64,000 bases of DNA. Source: Actinomycetospora straminea (GTDB lineage: Bacteria; Actinomycetota; Actinomycetes; Mycobacteriales; Pseudonocardiaceae). This document shows, one piece after another, positions 41,610 to 53,737 of the stretch. The position numbers were made by a program, and so were the translations under genes. The notes beneath the pieces were generated by a model that saw nothing but the letters and a program-made list of their open reading frames with translations, did not search any database and was not told the origin of the DNA. The DNA lies in assembly GCF_028737255.1 (NCBI RefSeq), contig NZ_JAQZAN010000013.1:1-64000 (forward strand), in the 5' to 3' direction. Each line of letters starts with the position of its first letter. The stretch's first letter is position 1.

Positions 41610-41686
41610 GCCGCCTTAGCTCAGTCGGCCAGAGCAACGCACTCGTAATGCGTAGGTCTCGGGTTCGAATCCCGAAGGCGGCTCCA
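41610..41686 (+). tRNA. tRNA-Thr (anticodon CGT)
   Basis: 77 bases including encoded CCA. Acceptor stem GCCGCCT / AGGCGGC, anticodon stem ACGCA / TGCGT around loop CTCGTAA (anticodon CGT, Thr ACG codon), T arm TCGGG-TTCGAAT-CCCGA. Insertion site of the AICE: the 3' part from 41641 is the attL copy, and the T arm is different from the host copy left at attR. Confidence 0.95.
41641..41658 (+). repeat. attL core
   Basis: ACTCGTAATGCGTAGGTC, 18 bases of the tRNA-Thr anticodon arm and variable region, identical to 53692-53709. A second identity block, AGGCGGCTCCACCC, follows at 41676-41689. Confidence 0.92.
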
Positions 41687-41718: not shown

Positions 41719-42022
41719 TGGTCTCGGGTCCCTGGTTGCAGTTGTGGTTGCAGTTCGTTGTCTGGCCGGCGCGACGGATCAGGGACGCGAGCGTGGCGAC
41801 CATGTGCGTCTCCCACGCGGCCACCCAGGTCAGGCAGCGCTCTTCGTAGCCGCTGAGTTCGACGTCGGCGAGCGCCTCGAGCAGGACGGCTGTCTTGCGC
41901 TTGCGGAGCCGGTTGCGGTGGGTGTCGGCGTTCTCCCACCGCTGGCGGAACAGCGAGCGGTCCTCGCGGTCGTACGGCGGTGTCAGCCGGCGCGGTGGCT
42001 CCTGGATCGGCGGCTCAGTCAT
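41708..42022 (-). CDS. Small AICE protein downstream of int
   Basis: 104 residues, start ATG at 42022 overlapping the int stop by eight bases. A basic helical core (RQRWENADTHRNRLRKRKTAVLLEALADVEL) is followed by LTWVAAWETHMVATLASLIRRAG. The last residues (NCNHNCNQ) are encoded by the arm-type repeats. No known family recognised. The tight overlap and position at the end of the operon support it being real. Confidence 0.55.
   Translation of the reverse strand: MTEPPIQEPPRRLTPPYDREDRSLFRQRWENADTHRNRLRKRKTAVLLEALADVELSGYEERCLTWVAAWETHMVATLASLIRRAGQTTNCNHNCNQGPETIPS
41733..41755. promoter_or_regulatory. Left integrase arm-type sites
   Basis: TGGTTGCAGTT twice (41733-41743, 41745-41755), 12 bases apart, close to the attL core. 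Matching pair at 53577-53599 near attR. Confidence 0.7.
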
Positions 42023-43262
42023 CGTCGCCCCACAGCGCCGAGCCCATCCGCTGCGCCGCGTCTCGGGCCACGTCCGAGCTGACGTGCGTGTAGCCCTGGG
42101 TGGTCCGGACGTCGGAGTGGCCGAGGATTTCCTGCACGGTGCGGATGTGGACGCCCTGCGCGACCAGCAGGGTGCCCGCCGTGTGCCGGGTGTCGTGCAC
42201 GCGGACCTCTCGCACGCCGGCCTCCCGCAGGAGCTCCTTCCACTCGAGCCAGTCGGCGCGCGGGTCGATCGGGCGCCCGTAGGGCTGGGAGAAGACGAGG
42301 CCGAGGTCGGTCCAGAGCTCTCCGGCCTCGTCGCGCTCGGCGTCCTGGGCCGCTTTGTGTTCGCGGAGCTTGGCGACGAGGGGAGCGGGCAGGGTGACGG
42401 TGCGCTTGCTCTTGCCCTTCGGCCGCCGGAACACCAGGCCGCCGCCGTAGCGCTGCGGGCATCGCGAGGCGTGCCGGCGGCATGCGGGCGCGCACGTCGA
42501 CCGGTGCAGCCGCGAGCCGCAGGCGTGCGGGTCGTCGCAGCCGTGGCGCCACTGGTTGCGCTGCAGCTGCCACCACACCTTGAGGTCGCCGGTCTCGAGG
42601 TCGACGTACTCCCAGCGCAGCCCCAACGCCTCGCCCTGCCGCAGGCCGCAGGAGAGCGCCACTGACCAGCGCGTCCCGTTCCGCCGGGGCTCGACGACGC
42701 CGAGGACGCGCTTGGCTTCCGCGAGACTGAGTTGCTGCTGCTCGAGCGCCGGCGCCGACGGCGGGTCCACGAGCTGCGCGACGTTGCGGCTGACGTGCCC
42801 GCGCCGGTGCGCGATCTTGAGCGCCCGGGAGATGATCCGGTGGGTCTTGAGCACCATCGTCGGCGCGCGGCCGGCCTCGAGCATCGCCTGATACAGCCGG
42901 TCCAGGTGTTCCGGGGCGAGGCGGTCGAGCCGGACCCCGCCGAGGTGCGGGATGATCCAGTTGCTCGCTTGGGACCAGTAGGCGTCGAGCGTCTTGGGCT
43001 GGACCTTCTGCGGCGCGATCGTGTCGAGGTACGTCGTCATCCATACCGCGACCGTCGGCGCCGTACCCGGCTTGCGGACCTCGCCGCGCTCCCGGTCGCG
43101 TTCGAGGTCCTGAACCTTCTTCGTGACGATCTTCTGCGTCCGGCCGCGCACATGGCGACGGTCCGGCTTGCCGTCCGCCCGGTAGCCGACGGTGACGTAG
43201 CCGTGCCAGCCGTCAGCGCCTTCGTAAATCGAGGAGCGTCCGTTGGGACGCCGGGGCGCCAT
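42015..43262 (-). CDS. int: Tyrosine-family site-specific integrase
   Basis: 415 residues. Arm-binding AP2-like N terminus, core-binding domain (VAVWMTTYLDTIAPQKVQPKTLDAYWSQ), catalytic domain with Arg208 (GLRQGEALGL), Lys in RPKGKSKRTV, His356/Arg359 (HDTRHTAG), His382 (LGHSDVRTT) and nucleophile Tyr391. A Cys-rich insertion (Cys242, 248, 257, 261, 268) between motif boxes is typical of actinobacterial AICE integrases. ATGA overlap with xis. It catalyses integration at the adjacent tRNA-Thr. Confidence 0.96.
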   Translation of the reverse strand: MAPRRPNGRSSIYEGADGWHGYVTVGYRADGKPDRRHVRGRTQKIVTKKVQDLERDRERGEVRKPGTAPTVAVWMTTYLDTIAPQKVQPKTLDAYWSQASNWIIPHLGGVRLDRLAPEHLDRLYQAMLEAGRAPTMVLKTHRIISRALKIAHRRGHVSRNVAQLVDPPSAPALEQQQLSLAEAKRVLGVVEPRRNGTRWSVALSCGLRQGEALGLRWEYVDLETGDLKVWWQLQRNQWRHGCDDPHACGSRLHRSTCAPACRRHASRCPQRYGGGLVFRRPKGKSKRTVTLPAPLVAKLREHKAAQDAERDEAGELWTDLGLVFSQPYGRPIDPRADWLEWKELLREAGVREVRVHDTRHTAGTLLVAQGVHIRTVQEILGHSDVRTTQGYTHVSSDVARDAAQRMGSALWGDDD

Positions 43263-43441
43263 CAGGCCACCTCGCGGGCGAGGGCGGCGACGTACGCGCG
43301 GACGGCGTCGTCCGGCACGCGCCGGCTCTTGCCGATCTTCACCGAGGCCAGCTCCCCGGTCGTGATCAGTCCGAACACGCGGGACCGGCAGATGCCGAGC
43401 AGCTCGGCGACCTCCTCGACACGCCACAGGTACTTGGTCAT
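43262..43441 (-). CDS. xis: Excisionase (MerR-like helix-turn-helix)
   Basis: 59 residues: YLWRVEEVAELLGICRSRVFGLITTGELASVKIGKSRRVPDDAVRAYV is the winged helix-turn-helix of AICE Xis proteins. ATGA overlaps on both sides. It directs integrase toward excision. Confidence 0.92.
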   Translation of the reverse strand: MTKYLWRVEEVAELLGICRSRVFGLITTGELASVKIGKSRRVPDDAVRAYVAALAREVA

Positions 43442-43791
43442 CAGTCCTCCTCCGTGAGCACTCGGCCCAGGTGGCCGAGCTGGTTGTGGGCGTGGTCGAG
43501 GTGGCCGGCGAGGTCGTCGACCAGGCCGCGGGCCTCGGCGAGGTGGCCGTGAGCGCGGCAGAGCGCGCCGGCCGGGTCGGCGCCGCGGTCGTCGTAGTGC
43601 TGCGCGGGCTCGGCCCGGCGCAGTCCTCGTCCGAGGTAGTCGAGGAGCTGCGGGAGCCGGTGGACGAGCTCGGCGAGGCCCCCGACGACGGCGTAGGCGT
43701 CGGGACCAGTGACGGGGCCGAGGGCGGCGTGGTTGGCGGCACGGACGGACTCGGAGGCCTGGTCGATATGCCGGGTGAGGGCGGGGTTCAT
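43441..43791 (-). CDS. AICE protein A, paralogue of the 46039 gene
   Basis: 116 residues, mostly helical, His-rich C terminus (GHLAEARGLVDDLAGHLDHAHNQLGHLGRVL). The N-terminal block SVRAANHAALGP and GGLAELVHRLPQLLDYL match AVRLANHAARDG and GALGSVVTLVDRLPQVVLF in the gene at 46039, so the two are paralogues. Coupled by ATGA on both sides. Function unknown; inferred to belong to the transfer module. Confidence 0.75.
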   Translation of the reverse strand: MNPALTRHIDQASESVRAANHAALGPVTGPDAYAVVGGLAELVHRLPQLLDYLGRGLRRAEPAQHYDDRGADPAGALCRAHGHLAEARGLVDDLAGHLDHAHNQLGHLGRVLTEED

Positions 43792-44012
43792 CGGGTCTCC
43801 TCGGGGACGTCAGCAGCGCGGTCGGTGGCGGCACCGAGCTGGTGGGCGAACTCGCCGGCGCTGCTCGACACCGCGGGCCCGAGGGTCGGAAAGGCGGCGA
43901 AGAGCAGGACGAGGGTCACGACGCCAGAGACGAGCGCCGGCGCGGCCTTGCGGCTCTTGACCAGCAGGGCGGTGACGAGGCCGGCGATGACGACGATCGC
44001 GAGCAGGTTCAC
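43788..44012 (-). CDS. Small two-helix membrane protein (spread-protein candidate)
   Basis: 74 residues: LLAIVVIAGLVTALLVKSRKAAPALVSGVVTLVLLFAAFPTLG gives two transmembrane helices joined by a basic loop. Coupled by GTGA to traB upstream and ATGA downstream. In other AICEs small Spd membrane proteins occupy this place and help spread DNA between hyphae; that role is inferred from position and topology. Confidence 0.75.
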   Translation of the reverse strand: MNLLAIVVIAGLVTALLVKSRKAAPALVSGVVTLVLLFAAFPTLGPAVSSSAGEFAHQLGAATDRAADVPEETR

Positions 44013-45256
44013 GACTCGGCCCGCCGTCCGAAGCGCTGGACGCGGTCGACGTACTCGCCGTACTCGCCCAGGTACGGGACCCGGATGCGCTGGCAGTCCC
44101 TGCCAAGTCCTGACAGGTATGCGACGCCGGGATCGGCGTTGGCGTGCTCCTGGCCCAGCGCGCGGGCGTCGGTGCCGTGGAGCATCTCGAGCGAGTCGGC
44201 CGGAACCCTGAAGCTCAGCCTCAGGGCGAACTGGTCGCGGGCGTAGCCGCCGCCGACCGCGGTGGCCTCGAAGCGCTGGGCCAGCATCAGCACGCGGAAC
44301 GCCGCCTTGCGGCCCTCGCTCAGCAGCCGCAGCACCGCGGCGCGGATGCGGTCGCCGACGGGCACGCCCTCGCCGCGCTTGGGCCTCGGCAGGCCATCCG
44401 CGGCCCGCAGCAGACCGGGGAACTCCTCGAGCGGGACGAGCACCGTCGGGCACCCCGCCGAGGGCACGATCTTGTCCTGGCGCGGCGGGATGGTCGCGAG
44501 CCGGCGGTCCATCTCGGCCACGAGGTCCTCGAGCAGTACCGCGTGCGCCGCGATGTCGGCGGTGCCGGTGACCTGGTGGGCGCGGTGGATCGTGCCGTCC
44601 CAGGCGCGTCCGAGCAGCAGGCCGGTGATGTCGGAGCCGGCGATCAGGACGTCGGGCGCGGCGGCGAGCTGGGCGAGCAGCCCGTAGGTGAAGACCGACT
44701 TCCCGGAGCCATTCATGCCCTGCACGGCCAGGTGCGCGGGATCGGTGATGGCGTGGCCGAGTGTGACGCCGTCCTCGGTGCGACCCAGGACCACGGCCTC
44801 GCTCCCGGAGTGGACGACGGCCGGCGGGAGGCCGAAACCGTCACGCAGGGGGTCGGCGTCGAGCAGGTGCAGCCGCACCCAGCGACCGGCGATCGGTTCG
44901 ACCCGCAGGCCGTGGGCGCCGAGGGTGTGCGCGAGCCGTGGCCCGTTCTCCTTGGCGGTGAAGTCGCGCGGCTCCTGCCCGGGCAGCAGCTCCACGGTCA
45001 GCGAGGTGGGCGGGCCGACGCGGACCTCCCCGACGCGCGGGGTGCGGATGGTGACGCCGGCAGCGACCTGGACGTAGTGGCAGATGCTCAGGCCGGTGCA
45101 GGCTTCGCGGAAGGCGCCGCGGACGGCTTCGGCGTAGGCGACGATCGACGCCTCGTAGTCCCGGCGGGCCTGGCGCTCGCGGAGCCGCCCGAGGAGCCCG
45201 GGTCCGGCTCTGCCGTCTGGCGCCCGCTCGAGGGCGTGGGTCTCGGCCACGGTCAC
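44009..45256 (-). CDS. traB: FtsK/TraB-type DNA translocase (conjugal transfer)
   Basis: 415 residues. Walker A GMNGSGKSVFTYG at about residue 180-192, Walker B PTVLVPLEEFPGLL near 262, and a sensor region VLMLAQRFEATAVG. AICE transfer relies on a single such hexameric pump that moves double-stranded DNA. GTG start at 45256 within GTGA and preceded by AGGAGAAGGGA. No long membrane segments are obvious in the N-terminal 60 residues, which is shorter than classical TraB. Confidence 0.88.
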   Translation of the reverse strand: MTVAETHALERAPDGRAGPGLLGRLRERQARRDYEASIVAYAEAVRGAFREACTGLSICHYVQVAAGVTIRTPRVGEVRVGPPTSLTVELLPGQEPRDFTAKENGPRLAHTLGAHGLRVEPIAGRWVRLHLLDADPLRDGFGLPPAVVHSGSEAVVLGRTEDGVTLGHAITDPAHLAVQGMNGSGKSVFTYGLLAQLAAAPDVLIAGSDITGLLLGRAWDGTIHRAHQVTGTADIAAHAVLLEDLVAEMDRRLATIPPRQDKIVPSAGCPTVLVPLEEFPGLLRAADGLPRPKRGEGVPVGDRIRAAVLRLLSEGRKAAFRVLMLAQRFEATAVGGGYARDQFALRLSFRVPADSLEMLHGTDARALGQEHANADPGVAYLSGLGRDCQRIRVPYLGEYGEYVDRVQRFGRRAES

Positions 45257-45609
45257 GCTCCCTTCTCCTGGCAGGTCGAGCAGAGCGACCCGTCCACCGC
45301 GGGGACGGGGAACAGCAGCGAGCAGGCCGCGCACGCCGGCTCCCGGTCCGCGACCGGGTCGGGGACGCCGGCGAGACGCTGGCGCCGGATGGCGCGGCGC
45401 TCGGTGGGCGTGGTGGCCGCCCAGATGCCGACGTCCTGGCCCGTGTCGAGCGCCCAGGTCAGGCACTCGGTCTGCACCGGGCAGCGCCCGCACACCGGCC
45501 GCACCGCGGAGAGGTGGCGGGCGACGACCGGCGCGGTGTCGTCGTCGCTGGGCGGGAAGAACAGCTCCGGGTCGGTGTCGCGGCAAGCCGCGCGCGTCTG
45601 CCAGCTCAT
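45253..45609 (-). CDS. WhiB-like protein with extra C-terminal zinc ribbon
   Basis: 118 residues. WhiB ligands Cys9, Cys40, Cys43, Cys49 (AAC...PVCGRCPVQTEC), turn motif DVGIWAATT and basic tail. After the WhiB unit an additional C-x2-C...C-x2-C pair (Cys93, 96, 110, 113; ACAACSLLF...SLCSTCQ) forms a zinc-ribbon-like module that typical WhiB proteins lack. ATGA/GTGA overlaps with neighbours. Iron-sulfur transcription factor expected to regulate the element. Confidence 0.88.
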   Translation of the reverse strand: MSWQTRAACRDTDPELFFPPSDDDTAPVVARHLSAVRPVCGRCPVQTECLTWALDTGQDVGIWAATTPTERRAIRRQRLAGVPDPVADREPACAACSLLFPVPAVDGSLCSTCQEKGA

Positions 45610-46621: not shown

Positions 46622-47413
46622 GTGGCGCTCGAGGCGGCGAAATCGCAGTACCGACAGGTCGCCGACCTGCTGCGCGAAGGCATCGAGCGCCAGGACTACG
46701 CCCCGGGCTCGACGCTGCCGGCGGAGTCCGAGCTCGCCGCCGAGTACGGCGTCTCCCGGGTGACCATCAACCGAGCCGTGCAGCTGCTCCGCGGCGAAGG
46801 GCTCGTCCGCGTCCTGCGGGGGCGGGGCACCGTCGTCCGCGCCATCCCGCCGATCCGGCGCAACAGCAGCCGCCGCTACGCCCGCAGCTCCCGCGAGGAA
46901 GACGGCAGCCGCGGCGCCTTCGACTTCGAGATCAGGCGCCTCGGTCTCAAGCCGTCGACCAAACTCGCCCAGCTCGGCCAGGTCGCACCCCCGGAAACCG
47001 CGCGCGAGGTCCTGGGACTCGAGGTCGGCGAGATGGTGCTCATCCGCAAGCGCGAGATGTTCGCCTCCGACGAGCCGGTCCTGCTGGCCACCTCTTACTT
47101 TCCGTGGGGCCTCGCCGAGCAGGCCGGGGTGACCGACGTCGACACCGGACCGGGTGGGACGTACTCACGCCTCGCAGAGATCGGCAAGGGCCCGGTGCGG
47201 TTCACCGAGGACGTGCGAGTCCGGACCCCGTCAGCCGCCGAGGAGCGCTTCTTCGCGCTCTCCGAGACCCAGCAGGTGTACGAGATCGTCCACATCGCCT
47301 ACCTCGAGGACGGCACGGCCGTGGAGTACCGCGAGGACGTCCTACCGACCTACCAGTGGATCATGCACTTCGAGTGGAACGCGGAGAACGACAGCGAGGA
47401 GGCCCAGCAATGA
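46622..47413 (+). CDS. GntR/HutC-family regulator (KorSA-like)
   Basis: 263 residues. Winged helix YRQVADLLREGIERQDYAPGSTLPAESELAAEYGVSRVTINRAVQLLRGEGLVRVLRGRGTVV, then a UTRA ligand domain. GTG start with GAGGAGG upstream. KorSA of pSAM2 is of this class and represses transfer and replication; palindromes at 46473 and 46540 fit. ATGA overlap with the PP2C gene. Confidence 0.9.
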   Translation: MALEAAKSQYRQVADLLREGIERQDYAPGSTLPAESELAAEYGVSRVTINRAVQLLRGEGLVRVLRGRGTVVRAIPPIRRNSSRRYARSSREEDGSRGAFDFEIRRLGLKPSTKLAQLGQVAPPETAREVLGLEVGEMVLIRKREMFASDEPVLLATSYFPWGLAEQAGVTDVDTGPGGTYSRLAEIGKGPVRFTEDVRVRTPSAAEERFFALSETQQVYEIVHIAYLEDGTAVEYREDVLPTYQWIMHFEWNAENDSEEAQQ

Positions 47414-48216
47414 GCCCGGCCGGCCTTCACGTCGTCAGCGCCGAACTCCCGGCCGGCGACGCCCCCAACGAGGACCGGGTCCGCGTCGGCCAGAACACGG
47501 TCGTCGTCCTCGACGGCGCCTCCGGCAGCGACACCAGGGTCACGGTCGCCGACTACGTCGACCACCTGGCCGCGGCTCTCATCGACGTCCTGGACGCCGA
47601 GCCGGACATGCCTCTCCCGCACGCCCTCGCCGACGCCATCCGATCGACCGTCGCCGAGCTGCGGCTTATGCCGGGGGAGTCGCCGTCCTCGACCGTCAGC
47701 ATCGCCCGCCGGCGCGGCGAGGAGGTCGACCTCCTCGTCTTGGGTGACAGCCCGATCTACCTCGGGCCCGCTGGCGAGCTGCTCACCGACGACCGGCTCG
47801 CCCGCCTGGACCTCCCGAGCCGGACGAAGGCGTACGAGCGTCTGCGCCGGGGCTCTGGCTACGACGACGTGCACCGCAAACTGGTCCGCGCTGTCCGCGC
47901 CGAGCAGCTGCCCCTGCTCAACAAGCCCGGCGGCTACTGGATCGCCGAGGCCAGGCCGGAGGCAGGGCACGACGCCGTCACTCGAACCGTGCCCTCGAAC
48001 CTCCCGTGGCTGGTGATGCTCACGGACGGCGCCGACAAGCCACTTCGTCACCTGGGCATCCCGCTCGACGACGTGGTCAGCCGCACTCAGGACGAGCTTG
48101 AGGACATGCTCCTCGAGCTGCACGAGTGGGAAGAGGACAAGGACCCGGCGGCTCTCGAGCTCCCACGGTTCAAGCAGCACGACGACAAGACTGCGGCTGT
48201 GGTGACCTTCCCGTGA
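47410..48216 (+). CDS. PP2C-like protein phosphatase
   Basis: 268 residues. PP2C motifs in order: NEDRVRV, VVVLDGASG, VDLLVLGDSPIYL, WLVMLTDGAD and HDDKTAAVV, so all metal-binding Asp positions are present. Between GntR and NUDIX in the same overlapping operon (ATGA before, GTGA after). A serine/threonine phosphatase here is unusual for an AICE and its target is unknown. Confidence 0.85.
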   Translation: MSPAGLHVVSAELPAGDAPNEDRVRVGQNTVVVLDGASGSDTRVTVADYVDHLAAALIDVLDAEPDMPLPHALADAIRSTVAELRLMPGESPSSTVSIARRRGEEVDLLVLGDSPIYLGPAGELLTDDRLARLDLPSRTKAYERLRRGSGYDDVHRKLVRAVRAEQLPLLNKPGGYWIAEARPEAGHDAVTRTVPSNLPWLVMLTDGADKPLRHLGIPLDDVVSRTQDELEDMLLELHEWEEDKDPAALELPRFKQHDDKTAAVVTFP

Positions 48217-48650
48217 CCGGACACCCTATCCTCTCGGTCTCGGTCGCCGGGGTGACTCTCGACAGAGATGGCCGGGTTCTCGTGATTCGGCGGCGAGACA
48301 ACGACCAGTGGCAGGCGCCAGGCGGTGTGCTCGAAGCCGATGAGACGTTCGAGCAGGGAGTAGTTAGAGAGGTTCTCGAAGAGACGAACGTCCAGGTAGA
48401 GGTTGAGCAACTAACGGGCGTCTATAAGAATCTTCAAAAGAATGTTGTAGCTCTTGTCTATCGCTGTCGGTATTTGAGCGGAACACCAACACCTTCTGAC
48501 GAGGCCGCCGAGGTCCTATGGACCGATCCGGCGGAGATCATAAAACAGATGGCTCCAGCGTTCGCGGTGCGCATTGAGGACGCTCTTCGCTTAGCAGACG
48601 GTCCACCAGCAAGTCGCGCACACGACGGAGTAGCCGTCTACGGGAGCTAG
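48213..48650 (+). CDS. AICE NUDIX hydrolase
   Basis: 145 residues from GTG at 48213. NUDIX box GGVLEADETFEQGVVREVLEETNV (Asn replaces the usual Gly after EET). NUDIX genes accompany GntR in many Streptomyces AICEs and are linked to control of transfer. GC content falls clearly from here rightward. Confidence 0.88.
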   Translation: MTGHPILSVSVAGVTLDRDGRVLVIRRRDNDQWQAPGGVLEADETFEQGVVREVLEETNVQVEVEQLTGVYKNLQKNVVALVYRCRYLSGTPTPSDEAAEVLWTDPAEIIKQMAPAFAVRIEDALRLADGPPASRAHDGVAVYGS

Positions 48651-48707
48651 CGGGTCACCACCCCGACGCGCTGATCTTGCCGTGGCCAGCGACCCGTGCC
48701 CGAGGCA

Positions 48708-49583
48708 CTAAGAACGCCCGGCTATCCGCCGAACTAGTCGCCGCGCTTTCCTCGCGGGGCGTAGAACCCTGCCGTCGTGGAGCTCGACGCCCTCAAAGGC
48801 GGACGCGGTTTCCTCGCAAAGATCGGCCCAACGCTCCAGGCCCGACTCGTGCAGCACATGCACCAATATCGAGTCGGCCGATCCGGCCGGTCGTACTAGC
48901 AGGCACCCGCTGTCAGTCGGCTCAACTACGACTTCGCCCTCGGCGTCAAGTGAGGAGATGTAGAGCGGGTGCGTGGTGACCACAACTGGGACCGCATAGT
49001 GGAGACTCGGCGGCTCTGTGGAAGGTTTCAAATCTCTCAGAGCCCCAACCGCGCCGGACGCCGCTTGCCGAACTGCGTCGTAAGCTTCGTTCCTTTCGTC
49101 GCCCTTATCGGCGGAATTCGGACGCCCCTTCATCTGCACGATTCCATAACACGCAGGAGTCGGACCTTCAAAGAGGGGCGCCCCATGACCAAGTATCTGG
49201 TCGTGCACGCTCCCCACGAGCCGATCATCGTCAGGCTCGGCAGAAGCCGAAACGGCAAAGTTGTAGTAGCCCACCTCGATGTATTCTTGGGTGTCAGGGT
49301 CTGCGAAGAGAACCCATGGCTGGTCGCCCGCCTTGCACTCTACTATTACATATAGCGCGAGGATCGCGAGGCGTTCGGTCATCTGCATCCAGAGGACCTC
49401 GATGTCGGTTTCTCTCACGCCTCCAGTCGATGGATCAAGGTAGTGTCCGCCCTGCGTCAGCATCATAGGGTTTCGCGCCCGAAAGACTGTTGCCACTCGC
49501 ATCTCAAGTGGATACCCGGTCGCGACCAGCCACTGCTTAACTTTCGACTTTAGCTCGTCGCTAGACCTATACGAATCGTTCAC
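48708..49583 (-). CDS. PD-(D/E)XK nuclease-like protein
   Basis: 291 residues, GTG start. Residues 20-90 fit a restriction-endonuclease-like core: Glu27 (PLEMRVATVF), Asp60 (RETDIEVLW) and the E-x-K pair Glu82-Lys84 (LYVIVECKAGD). A second half (about 180-290) with VVVTTHPLYISSLDAEGEVVVEPTDSGCLLVR resembles a small sensor or effector unit I cannot name. Codon use is far more AT-rich than the rest of the window. Third gene of the cargo cluster. The nuclease assignment is from motif pattern only. Confidence 0.65.
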   Translation of the reverse strand: MNDSYRSSDELKSKVKQWLVATGYPLEMRVATVFRARNPMMLTQGGHYLDPSTGGVRETDIEVLWMQMTERLAILALYVIVECKAGDQPWVLFADPDTQEYIEVGYYNFAVSASAEPDDDRLVGSVHDQILGHGAPLFEGPTPACYGIVQMKGRPNSADKGDERNEAYDAVRQAASGAVGALRDLKPSTEPPSLHYAVPVVVTTHPLYISSLDAEGEVVVEPTDSGCLLVRPAGSADSILVHVLHESGLERWADLCEETASAFEGVELHDGRVLRPARKARRLVRRIAGRS

Positions 49584-49704
49584 GACTCTCCCAACGTCCT
49601 TACTTGGTCAGCGTGAATCTACTCAACTCGATGCTGGAGGAATCGACGAGACGTGGACTGATCCAGCTTTCAGTTCTAGTGCACTAAGGGGCCGTTGGGA
49701 CGGC

Positions 49705-50955
49705 TCAGGAGCCTGTTGACTCGTCCGCGAGGGTGTCGTCAAGCGTCATCTGGTTATCAAGTGGCTCACTCGCCCCGCGACCACCGCGCGCCCCTGACGC
49801 TGGTCCCGCGGTGCCGATGATCGTGGCGTCGTAGAGCCAGCTGATATTCGCTTCACGTTCAAGCCTTCCGGAGACGCGAAGTGCGATTTCCTCCTCGTGG
49901 GCTCGTACCGCTTCGTGATACTCGTCGGCGTCTGCCAAGCGCACCCGGAACTTTCGTCCACCCGCCCCAATGGAGTCGATACCAAATACGCCGGGACCTC
50001 CGACTTCCTTACGGGTTAGGAGATGAACGCGTCCGACCACGATGTACGCCGGCGTTGACTCCTCGGCCACAGATAGCCTGGCTGCGGCCCTCTCAAGAAT
50101 TGTGGAGTCGCTTCCACGAAACTCGACCTTAAGTAGTCGGCTCTCGCCGACGTCGGCGTCAACGTCCCACTCGAGTCGAATCTCCGCACCGTCCGAGTCC
50201 TTCGTTACTCCTTGCAAGGCGGTCAGCAGGTCGTACGAGACCCCGGTGCTAACGCGGTTGTCGAACGCCCCGACGTCGTTGCTCTTCCTAGCTTCGAAAA
50301 GGGCATCTTCGGTTGACTCTAGCGCTCGCGCGATAGAAGACGTGACGTCTCTTCCAGAAGCGACTTCAAGCGATGGGAGAGCGGTCTTAGTCTCGGACTT
50401 TGAGGAAGATATAGGAATCGCTGCTTGGGCTGGTGCGTGAGCGGTCACCACGTAGCTTCCGGGGGCTGTCTGGCCCATAAGCACCGTGTCCAAGTACCTG
50501 CCAGCAAAGTGGCCGAACTTGTTGCTGAAGCGCTTGAGCTGTCCGAGATAGGTCTTTGCCCCCGCAATCAGTGTTGCCCGAGAGGACCGCACCAAATCCT
50601 CGCCGTCGCGCCAAGAAATGAGACCGGAAGGCGCTGTGCTCTCTTTGTGGAAGAAAAACGAATCGGTCGAGACCTGCACCAGTCGGGGGAGTACAACCCG
50701 TAGCCAGTCCGCCGAATTGATCGGCTCTTGCAATGTTGAGAGAGCGTCGCCCATCACTTCGCCGTAATCCGGCGCCTGCGTATCTAGAGGTACTACGAGG
50801 GACCATTTCTGTGCGATCTGTCTGTCTTCGGGTGGCCGGAGTCGAGAATACAAACCCGAACGACCGCCCGATACTGTCCAGCCACACTCTTGCAGAAGGG
50901 CAATCAATTTAGCTGGAGGTACGTCGGTGGGGGCAATCTGAGGAGTCTCACTCAT
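49705..50955 (-). CDS. Unknown 416-residue cargo protein
   Basis: N-terminal winged-helix-like LIALLQECGWTVSGGRSGLYSRLRPP; central segment with many charged residues (ALESTEDALFEARKSNDVGAF, VSTGVSYDLLTALQGV); C-terminal beta-rich domain TPAYIVVGRVHLLTRKEVGGPG...RLADADEYHEAVRAHEEEIALRVSGRLE, reminiscent of an OB-like unit. No enzyme motif seen. Its ATG overlaps the stop of the DUF4365 gene (ATGA). No named family recognised. Confidence 0.72.
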   Translation of the reverse strand: MSETPQIAPTDVPPAKLIALLQECGWTVSGGRSGLYSRLRPPEDRQIAQKWSLVVPLDTQAPDYGEVMGDALSTLQEPINSADWLRVVLPRLVQVSTDSFFFHKESTAPSGLISWRDGEDLVRSSRATLIAGAKTYLGQLKRFSNKFGHFAGRYLDTVLMGQTAPGSYVVTAHAPAQAAIPISSSKSETKTALPSLEVASGRDVTSSIARALESTEDALFEARKSNDVGAFDNRVSTGVSYDLLTALQGVTKDSDGAEIRLEWDVDADVGESRLLKVEFRGSDSTILERAAARLSVAEESTPAYIVVGRVHLLTRKEVGGPGVFGIDSIGAGGRKFRVRLADADEYHEAVRAHEEEIALRVSGRLEREANISWLYDATIIGTAGPASGARGGRGASEPLDNQMTLDDTLADESTGS

Positions 50956-51493
50956 GCCGGCGCCCCCGTGGACTCGATGTTGTCCAACATCCGACTTAAG
51001 GATGCGGCGTCAAAAATGTTCGCGGTTGGAATTGAGACATACGGGCGTTCAATGCCGGGTCGGGCAACTTGGCCTTCCATCCAAAGCCAGTAGCAGCAGT
51101 GTAGTATCGAGATATTCTCGTGCGAGCAGCACGTCCAGCGTTCCTGCTCGGGATGCGTCGTCATCACGATCAGGATTGCTTTCTGGGTTGTGCGGGGGAT
51201 AGCCAGCTTCTCGAAGTACGCGCGCTTCGTAAACTGGTACGAGAACGTCTCCCTCGCTGGCTAGGCTTCAGCTGCGTGGTGCTCTTGAGCTGTGCCTTGA
51301 CGGCGACCTCTTCGCCACCGTTCTTACCTGGACGGACAATCTCGATGTCCGAGCCATAGCGATCTTTGCGCTTGATCTCGAAGCTGCACCCTGCTGTGGC
51401 CGCCACCGCGCCTACGTAGCCCTCTTGGAGCTGCTCCATGCAGTCCGTGAAGTTCTCGTCGAACACGGGCTTCACGCGCGTTGTCGGCGGCAT
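50952..51493 (-). pseudogene. DUF4365-domain protein, frameshifted
   Basis: From ATG at 51493: GYVGAVAATAGCSFEIKRKDRYGSDIEI, then VAVKAQLKSTTQLK, the DUF4365 PD-(D/E)XK-like core (Asp49, Gln68-x-Lys70). At 51251-51253 the reading frame is lost; one extra G there would give QRGETFSYQFTKRAYFEKLAIPRTTQKAIL, the normal DUF4365 continuation, which runs in another frame to 50952. So one base is missing, by decay or sequencing error. Start uncertain (ATG at 51598 also open). Confidence 0.72.
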
Positions 51494-51731
51494 GCTGCGG
51501 AGGCTCGCTTCCAGAGACCGGTGGCCGAGCCGTGCGGCTCGCCGGATCTCTGTATCTACCAGTGGGCACGGAGCGTTACTAGGTCTTGACCGCGGCATGG
51601 TTGCGTGCCGCGTTGAGGAACCGTGTCGTTTGACACGAGACGTCGACGCTCGTCGTGCAAGCGTCATACGCCTCGCCTCCTCCGCTGAGTGCTGGGTACC
51701 AGCTTGGTCCGACAACGAGCTGGTGCGTAGA

Positions 51732-53141
51732 TCAGAGGCGCCCTCTGAGCCCCTGACCTTCTCCGATGGAGACCTTCCCCTCGATCAGGTAGCGGGAAAG
51801 GACCGCTGTGAACGCCGGACCATGGTTGAGGGCGATCCAGCCACGATTGCCGTTGGTCATCAGCTGGACGCGAGAGCGCGACTTGCGGAGCTGCACGCGA
51901 CCGGTGCGGGAGCAGGTGCGCGGCTTCCAGGTCTGCTGCGCGCGTCGCTGTGCTCGAGCCCAGCGGCGGGCGATGCGGCCGGCCTGGACGCCGTCCTCGG
52001 GTCGGACGACGACGGTGTGGGTGGCGCGCTCGAGGTTCCACACGCCCCAGAAGCGGCCCGGACCATGGCCCGGCTCGCGCCACCCCGCCGGCACCTCGTG
52101 CTGGTACTCCTTCGCCGCCATCAGCCCGTGCTTCGTGAAGTACGCCGCGACGCGACGAGGGTCGGTGGCCCGGAGCCCCTCCGCGTAGTCCAGCGCCGTC
52201 CCGGCCAGGTCGTGGCGCCGGCGCTGCTCGGGGTCCGGGTGATCGACGACGCCGGCCCAGGCCGCCGACAGCCAGACGGCGAAGCGCTCGCCAGTCGTCT
52301 TCGACAGCCCGTGCGGGGGAGTGCAGAGCATGTGGACGTGCGGCGCTCCGCGGCGCTGGAACTCGAGCTTCCACACGCACGACCAGTCCTCGCCCCACGC
52401 GCGCAGGTAGCGCTTCCGCAGCGCCTTCATGTGCCGCTTCAGGTCCTGCCCTGTCGGGACGACGGTCAGCCAGTCGCCGGGGTAGGTCAGCGTCACCATC
52501 GCCGGCAGCCGGCCGTCCCGGTAGAGCGGCGTGTAGTCCAGCTCGCACAGCCGGCGCGTCATCCGGTTCCGCGACTTCCGCGACCAGGCCGTGATCGACG
52601 AGCGCGGCGGTGGCTTCTCCGGCCACTCGCCGGTCGCAATGTGCGCGGCAACGTCCTGGTCCACGTCCTTCACGTGCGCCTCGTACGCCCGCTCGCCGGT
52701 GCGCTCCCGGCGAGACCAGTCGTGACAGGCGACGGCGAACATCCCCGGCCCGACCGTCAGCTCCCACCGCGGACCCTCCGCGAGCGTGCCCGCCTCCTCG
52801 GTGACCGCGGGCAGCAGCGCGGCCGCGGCGTCGACGAGCTCGGGGGAGGGGAACCGGGGCGACCACAGCGACCCCGGGTCATCTGGGACCGACGTCGATT
52901 CCTGAGCCTCCCGGCCCGATATGGCACATAGAACAAGCCCTGGCGGCCGGCCCTCGGCTGACGCCGGGGCAGCGGCCGGGTCGGACGCGGCCGGCTTCCG
53001 CCGGCCGCTCCTGTCTTCGACCCGCGCCGGCGGGCCGGCCTCGCCTCCCACGGCCGCCACCGACGACAGGGAGGGAGCGGGCGCGGGGTTGTACGTGCGC
53101 CACGGATCAGGCAGGGAGCGCCAGGACGACGGCCGGGTCAT
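51732..53141 (-). CDS. rep: Rolling-circle replication initiator (RepSA-like)
   Basis: Up to 469 residues. HUH-type Rep: motif 1 PAMVTLTYPGDW, metal-binding APHVHML (His268, His270), and YFTKHGL with Tyr334 and Lys337. The conserved core WSRKSRNRMTRRLCELDYTPLY is strong. The first 85 residues look like unrelated sequence and the true start may be further in; no ATG lies between 53141 and Met134, so a non-ATG start around residue 85 is possible. It nicks an origin to start single-strand replication of the excised circle. Confidence 0.88.
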   Translation of the reverse strand: MTRPSSWRSLPDPWRTYNPAPAPSLSSVAAVGGEAGPPARVEDRSGRRKPAASDPAAAPASAEGRPPGLVLCAISGREAQESTSVPDDPGSLWSPRFPSPELVDAAAALLPAVTEEAGTLAEGPRWELTVGPGMFAVACHDWSRRERTGERAYEAHVKDVDQDVAAHIATGEWPEKPPPRSSITAWSRKSRNRMTRRLCELDYTPLYRDGRLPAMVTLTYPGDWLTVVPTGQDLKRHMKALRKRYLRAWGEDWSCVWKLEFQRRGAPHVHMLCTPPHGLSKTTGERFAVWLSAAWAGVVDHPDPEQRRRHDLAGTALDYAEGLRATDPRRVAAYFTKHGLMAAKEYQHEVPAGWREPGHGPGRFWGVWNLERATHTVVVRPEDGVQAGRIARRWARAQRRAQQTWKPRTCSRTGRVQLRKSRSRVQLMTNGNRGWIALNHGPAFTAVLSRYLIEGKVSIGEGQGLRGRL

Positions 53142-53691: not shown

Positions 53692-53737
53692 ACTCGTAAT
53701 GCGTAGGTCGTCGGTTCGATTCCGACAGGCGGCTCCA
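53692..53737 (+). repeat. attR, host tRNA-Thr 3' remnant
   Basis: Copy of the tRNA-Thr 3' half: 18-bp core (53692-53709), a T arm GTCGG-TTCGATT-CCGAC that differs from the resident tRNA but pairs fully, then AGGCGGC-T-CCA. It lacks the 5' half and cannot be a tRNA. Confidence 0.9.

Follow-up and report, generated by a model that had tools for sequence, protein, structure and literature searches.

A probably decayed copy of a predicted phage-defence pair and a solitary nuclease-like gene in the probable defence-cargo slot of an AICE from Actinomycetospora straminea

The window analysed here, a stretch of 64,000 nucleotides of Actinomycetospora straminea DNA (contig NZ_JAQZAN010000013.1, assembly GCF_028737255.1), contains an AICE of about 12 kb at a tRNA-Thr gene. 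The tRNA gene (CGT; 41610-41686, + strand; identified with ARAGORN) is the integration site and carries an att-type repeat at 41641-41658, which recurs as an exact 18-base, right-hand copy at 53692-53709 (+ strand). Genes of the element encode a tyrosine integrase (42015-43742, - strand; Pfam Phage_integrase, E 9e-23), a TraB/FtsK-type transfer ATPase (44009-45586, - strand; Pfam FtsK_SpoIIIE, E 2.3e-5 for 44009-45493), a GntR/UTRA regulator (46622-47413, + strand; Pfam GntR, E 4.4e-20, and UTRA, E 3.2e-20), a NUDIX hydrolase (48126-48650, + strand; Pfam NUDIX, E 1.5e-19), the replication initiator Rep (51732-53141, - strand; Pfam REP_ORF2-G2P, E 3.2e-11) and a WhiB protein. The att repeat at the tRNA gene, together with the int, TraB/FtsK, Rep and GntR/NUDIX genes, identifies the element as an AICE, and its layout matches the one described in PMC11706625.

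Between the NUDIX gene (inner border) and rep (outer border) lie three genes on the - strand, with coding stretches at 48708-49583, 49705-50955 and 50952-51493. The first-pass annotation of this DNA had described them as a co-directional, GC-poor trio in the cargo position of an AICE, and both their shared direction and their position are borne out. The trio is indeed low in GC (58.9%, against 74.8% for the remainder of the window, outside 48051-51650), with fractions of 0.596, 0.589 and 0.585 for the three genes in the order given, and the lowest value for any 2786-base stretch away from the trio region is 0.704. That everything around the trio is richer in GC does not hold: the adjoining NUDIX gene (0.590) is just as GC-poor, so the low-GC block is slightly wider than had been proposed. 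The reported absence of a methyltransferase stands, as the three genes match no such family in Pfam, PADLOC or NCBIfam, and a classical restriction-modification system was rejected on these grounds. Plasmid records searched with the trio DNA gave no match, no promoter-like sites were found, and terminator-like sites showed no excess over shuffled sequence.

Two of the three genes belong to a catalogued pair, PDC-M02 of PADLOC-DB v2.0.0, and the cluster is thus not an undescribed system, as had been suggested. PDC denotes phage-defence candidates, systems that were predicted by 'guilt-by-embedding' and had not been validated in the account given in PMC10855318; the name 'PDC-M02' was absent from the main texts of the literature searched. 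The rep-proximal gene, PDC-M02A (50952-51493, - strand), encodes a DUF4365 protein and is broken by a frameshift near 51260, its N-terminal half (P0003) running from 51493 down to about 51257 and its C-terminal half (P0004) from about 51260 to 50952 in a different frame. The two pieces match the PADLOC model PDLC04283 (E 1.9e-28 and 2.8e-40) contiguously, at model positions 7-91 for the N-terminal half and 90-187 for the C-terminal half, so that the family is present while its gene occupies two frames in this assembly. Residues Q68-L-K70 are retained in the N-terminal half, which gave a best E of 0.12 in PHROGs. Sequence alignment has indicated Q-x-K as the potential active site of TmuRE, a DUF4365-APAZ nuclease that degrades DNA nonspecifically once activated and is inactive as the Q62A/K64A mutant (PMC10810196).

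The stop codon of M02A overlaps the start of M02B (50952-50955), the adjacent gene on the same strand. PDC-M02B (P0002; 49705-50955, - strand; 416 aa) is fully open in the window and matches PADLOC model PDLC04317 at E 1.7e-108 over residues 6-384; its assignment to any other family was rejected (best Pfam E 0.026 over 18 members). A PHROGs search with P0002 gave a best E of 0.15, and a profile search of solved structures returned only plectin chains (E 0.09 and 0.12), which are not meaningful matches. Since no meaningful profile link to a solved structure emerged, the sensor role considered below for M02B is a guess.

The pairing of M02A with M02B is conserved elsewhere. To gather further M02B loci, 396 phylum genomes and 297 family genomes were searched, of which 12 and 17, respectively, gave a match (the window's own is counted in both figures); plasmids contributed two records and phages another two, one of them read. 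Before counting, the three phylum matches closest to the cut-off (L026-L028; E 2.9e-4 to 8.4e-4) were set aside, which left 27 loci besides the window. M02A adjoins M02B at 26 of these; at L025, the one exception, M02B is shortened and M02A was not found. With start codons as chosen in this analysis, the two genes overlap by 4-7 bases at 14 of the 26 loci, and Q-x-K is retained in M02A at 23 of them (A-L-K replaces it at L060 and L061, and the motif was not matched at L071). At L068 and L073 the M02B coding sequence is divided between two frames, and among 18 genomes of the genus M02B occurs in one, the window's own.

The settings of the pair vary. Genes for an integrase and a GntR-like protein accompany three of the four closest M02B homologues (L058, L060, L061), with a TraB-like gene also nearby at L060 and L061, and the pair is found on large plasmids as well (L032, L033). 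The annotation of a Mycobacterium prophage record (L037) begins, at one end, with M02A and M02B (398-2160), which match PHROGs 27905 and 27927; viral contigs contained a near-identical end of this M02B and gave no match for A3, A4 or L032. In two groups of loci (L018-L025, of which L025 has M02B alone, and L065-L067) the genes sit at seemingly fixed chromosomal places, next to what we take to be thrS and guaA, respectively; such core positions are less typical of mobile defence. Ten proteins encoded near M02AB, picked by eye, were tested with PADLOC, and six matched: DrmA and DrmB at L069 and L073, DrmA at L068, and a HerA/mad8-like ATPase at L070. The other four, of which L063 accounts for two and L060 and L071 for one apiece, did not match, and because the neighbours were picked by eye these numbers yield no rate of defence neighbours. 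Pfam additionally places an MrcB_N protein at L063 and a protein with HNH and ResIII helicase domains near the pair at L064. The L068, L069 and L073 pairs lie near DISARM-type genes (at L068 only DrmA was tested), and the three may represent one kind of locus.

The remaining gene, P0001 (48708-49583, - strand; 291 aa), has the E27, D60, E82 and K84 residues named in the first-pass annotation. All four are invariant in five of five aligned sequences, the window copy among them, giving P0001 the E/D/(E)xK pattern of PD-(D/E)XK proteins at the motif level. The AlphaFold2 model (mean pLDDT 42.8) is too poor to use. The two PD-(D/E)XK cores that had been proposed are supported at the level of motifs, one in a frameshifted gene and the other in a protein whose model does not define a fold. 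P0001 matched no family in Pfam, PADLOC or NCBIfam, and membership of a known Pfam family was rejected, the nearest candidates being at chance level (XamI at 0.058 and DUF4143 at 0.12, each for one member of five). Best values were 0.12 in PHROGs and 0.4 in the PDB, and queries of genome contigs with P0001 and with P0002 found nothing. The gene is rare: with the window included, it was detected in 4 of 396 phylum genomes (two of the matches weak), in 4 of 200 family genomes (one copy with internal stops) and in 1 of 18 genus genomes, the window's own. One relative (L038) comes after a serine recombinase gene. Another, 27% identical and with the motif kept, lies on an IMG/VR viral contig (L074:5983-6774).

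P0001 and the pair do not travel together in our data. P0001 was found beside none of the 27 other M02B loci (called genes were used for L018-L025 and six frames for the rest), and the stretches examined around its own relatives (L038-L041, L074) hold no clear M02A or M02B match, with none of either at L074. The best such match, to P0004 at E 0.018, is in L041, some 5 kb from the P0001 relative, in a sequence that starts a few hundred bases from that relative and so leaves one side out of view. These two lines of evidence indicate that P0001 is separate cargo, and the proposal that the three genes were transferred as a unit is not supported.

The broader setting of the trio emerged from sister elements. 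A relative of Rep at E <= 1e-60 was found in 11 of the 18 genus genomes, window included; the slot in G493 runs into a contig end, so that ten can be read, the window's and nine others. Each contains different genes after rep, with GC fractions of 0.49-0.60 except for two genes in G638 (0.64 and 0.70), and the trio is absent from the other nine at E <= 1e-6. All ten slots nevertheless gave a PADLOC match, those in G437 and G614 through ATPase similarity alone, among the genes scanned (two of three in G605 and in G573, two of five in G638, one of two in G595, and all in the others, as predicted by a simple gene caller). Whereas the window slot holds PDC-M02, the others hold a SMODS cyclase, a UG22 RT and a 2TM/Sa_NUDIX effector (G530); PDC-S45 (1.6e-69; G470); an AriAB-like AAA ATPase (3e-22; G437); LmuA (3e-8) and LmuB (1.3e-94) of Lamassu (G605); a QatA-like ATPase (4.6e-17; G614); SduA-like (1e-17) and PDC-M23B/HamB-like helicase (2.4e-73) proteins (G573); HamA (6.4e-15) and HamB (1.3e-110) of Hachiman (G546); IetA (3.8e-35; G638); and PDC-S47 (7.9e-33; G595).

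The sharpest case is G530, whose element is likewise at tRNA-Thr (CGT), beside a chromosomal gene 85% identical to that flanking the window's element: although Rep and TraB of the two elements share about 90% identity, they have no cargo in common. The three G530 proteins are encoded together (L091:9347-12974), the cyclase having an AGS_C sensor, and the set resembles a combination of CBASS and DRT components. Scanned slot genes with no PADLOC match include L092:9417-10313, which has 2TM-type domains by Pfam; L093:6010-7164, which lies beside the AAA ATPase of G437, also lacks a Pfam match and is a candidate partner of that ATPase; and L105:10370-11914, a candidate partner of the adjacent IetA in G638. 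No NUDIX relative was found in G530 or G638, making the inner border of the slot less clear there, and two crude alignments of slot borders revealed no evident shared short site. HamB (E <= 1e-20) occurs at two places in the 18 genus genomes, both in slots, and LmuB likewise at two, of which one is in a slot and the other, in G437, is not, counts that provide no unbiased control because these families were chosen for occurring in slots.

On balance, our data favour the view that elements of this AICE family reserve the place between rep and the NUDIX/GntR genes for defence cargo and exchange whole, different systems there, so that the element would serve as an interchangeable carrier of immunity across the genus. 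The literature searched, in the text available, contained no description of a fixed AICE cargo slot, which does not prove that none exists. The earlier suggestion of defence-related cargo gains support from the PDC-M02 matches, from PADLOC-type defence genes close to some of the other M02AB pairs and from the defence-like genes that sister elements carry in the corresponding slot. The first-pass observations are thus confirmed in part, and their interpretation is supported in part: the locus is not a new three-gene system, and instead combines a probably decayed copy of a known candidate pair with a solitary nuclease-like gene.

A true three-gene system, in which P0001 is a third component working with M02AB in this lineage, would account for its direction, its equally low GC and its start just 121 bases after M02B; given the separate occurrence of P0001 and the pair elsewhere, we regard this as largely refuted and highly improbable. 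A better, though still doubtful, case can be made that M02A is functional here, its break being either an artefact of assembly or one that ribosomes overcome by frameshifting: the assembly is a draft of 56 contigs, M02B is fully open and the PADLOC model places the two halves end to end. Against this, M02A forms a single open frame at all 26 other loci that have it, and decay of AICE cargo is common: a survey of Streptomyces AICEs reported pseudogenization of 42% of cargo versus 7% of core genes (PMC9513070). The copy in the window is therefore probably decayed, and since M02A is frameshifted the pair is probably inactive in the A. straminea genome, unless the break is an assembly error.

It is also conceivable, if a shade less so than a functional M02A, that M02AB is not antiviral and instead serves stability (addiction) or housekeeping DNA processing, with mobile elements among its carriers, as its seemingly fixed positions in some lineages and its presence on large plasmids and at the end of a prophage record might suggest. 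Against this explanation count the PADLOC defence genes near the pair at L068, L069, L070 and L073, the Pfam hints of defence at two more loci and the defence-like cargo that occupies this slot in sister AICEs. We consider it probable that the region is where an AICE carries its defence cargo, here a decayed PDC-M02 (M02A and M02B) and, separately, the solitary P0001.

To our knowledge, no experiment has yet supported PDC-M02. An intact pair would be expressed from one message with coupled translation, the overlap of its genes serving to balance the amounts of the two proteins. M02A and M02B would act together, with M02B holding the DUF4365 nuclease and acting as the sensor; when foreign DNA invades, M02B might release the nuclease, by analogy with TmuRE, and the freed nuclease would degrade DNA and halt infection, in many cases at the expense of the host cell. 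P0001 would form an independent nuclease-type barrier.

While the M02AB pair is one further, decayed copy of a predicted candidate, the greater interest lies in the slot. Should AICEs of this genus exchange defence systems at one fixed place, the unknown genes located there would be good candidates for new defence functions, among them P0001, the G437 protein next to the ATPase and the 514-aa G638 protein next to IetA, and the traffic of actinobacterial defence could be traced on a small conjugative element.

Compared with known systems, the window pair resembles PDC-M02 in that both families occur side by side on a single strand, M02A comes first and the genes overlap; it differs in its frameshifted M02A and in the unrelated nuclease-like gene that follows. 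With SPARDA, the DUF4365-APAZ short Argonaute system, it shares a DUF4365 nuclease domain with Q-x-K; here, however, the DUF4365 domain forms a protein of its own whose partner is M02B, a protein lacking any meaningful match among solved chains. A short Argonaute system was rejected, as Pfam found no Argonaute domain in P0001-P0004. AICE cargo has been reported to include restriction-modification and abortive infection genes (PMC9513070), and diDNase genes, frequent neighbours of defence systems, have been described on AICEs as well (PMC11706625). Like the Streptomyces AICEs surveyed in PMC9513070, the element has integration, replication and transfer modules and cargo that varies among close relatives, includes phage resistance and often decays. 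The present analysis departs from that survey in following cargo variation at one defined place after rep, with a PADLOC match in ten of ten readable slots.
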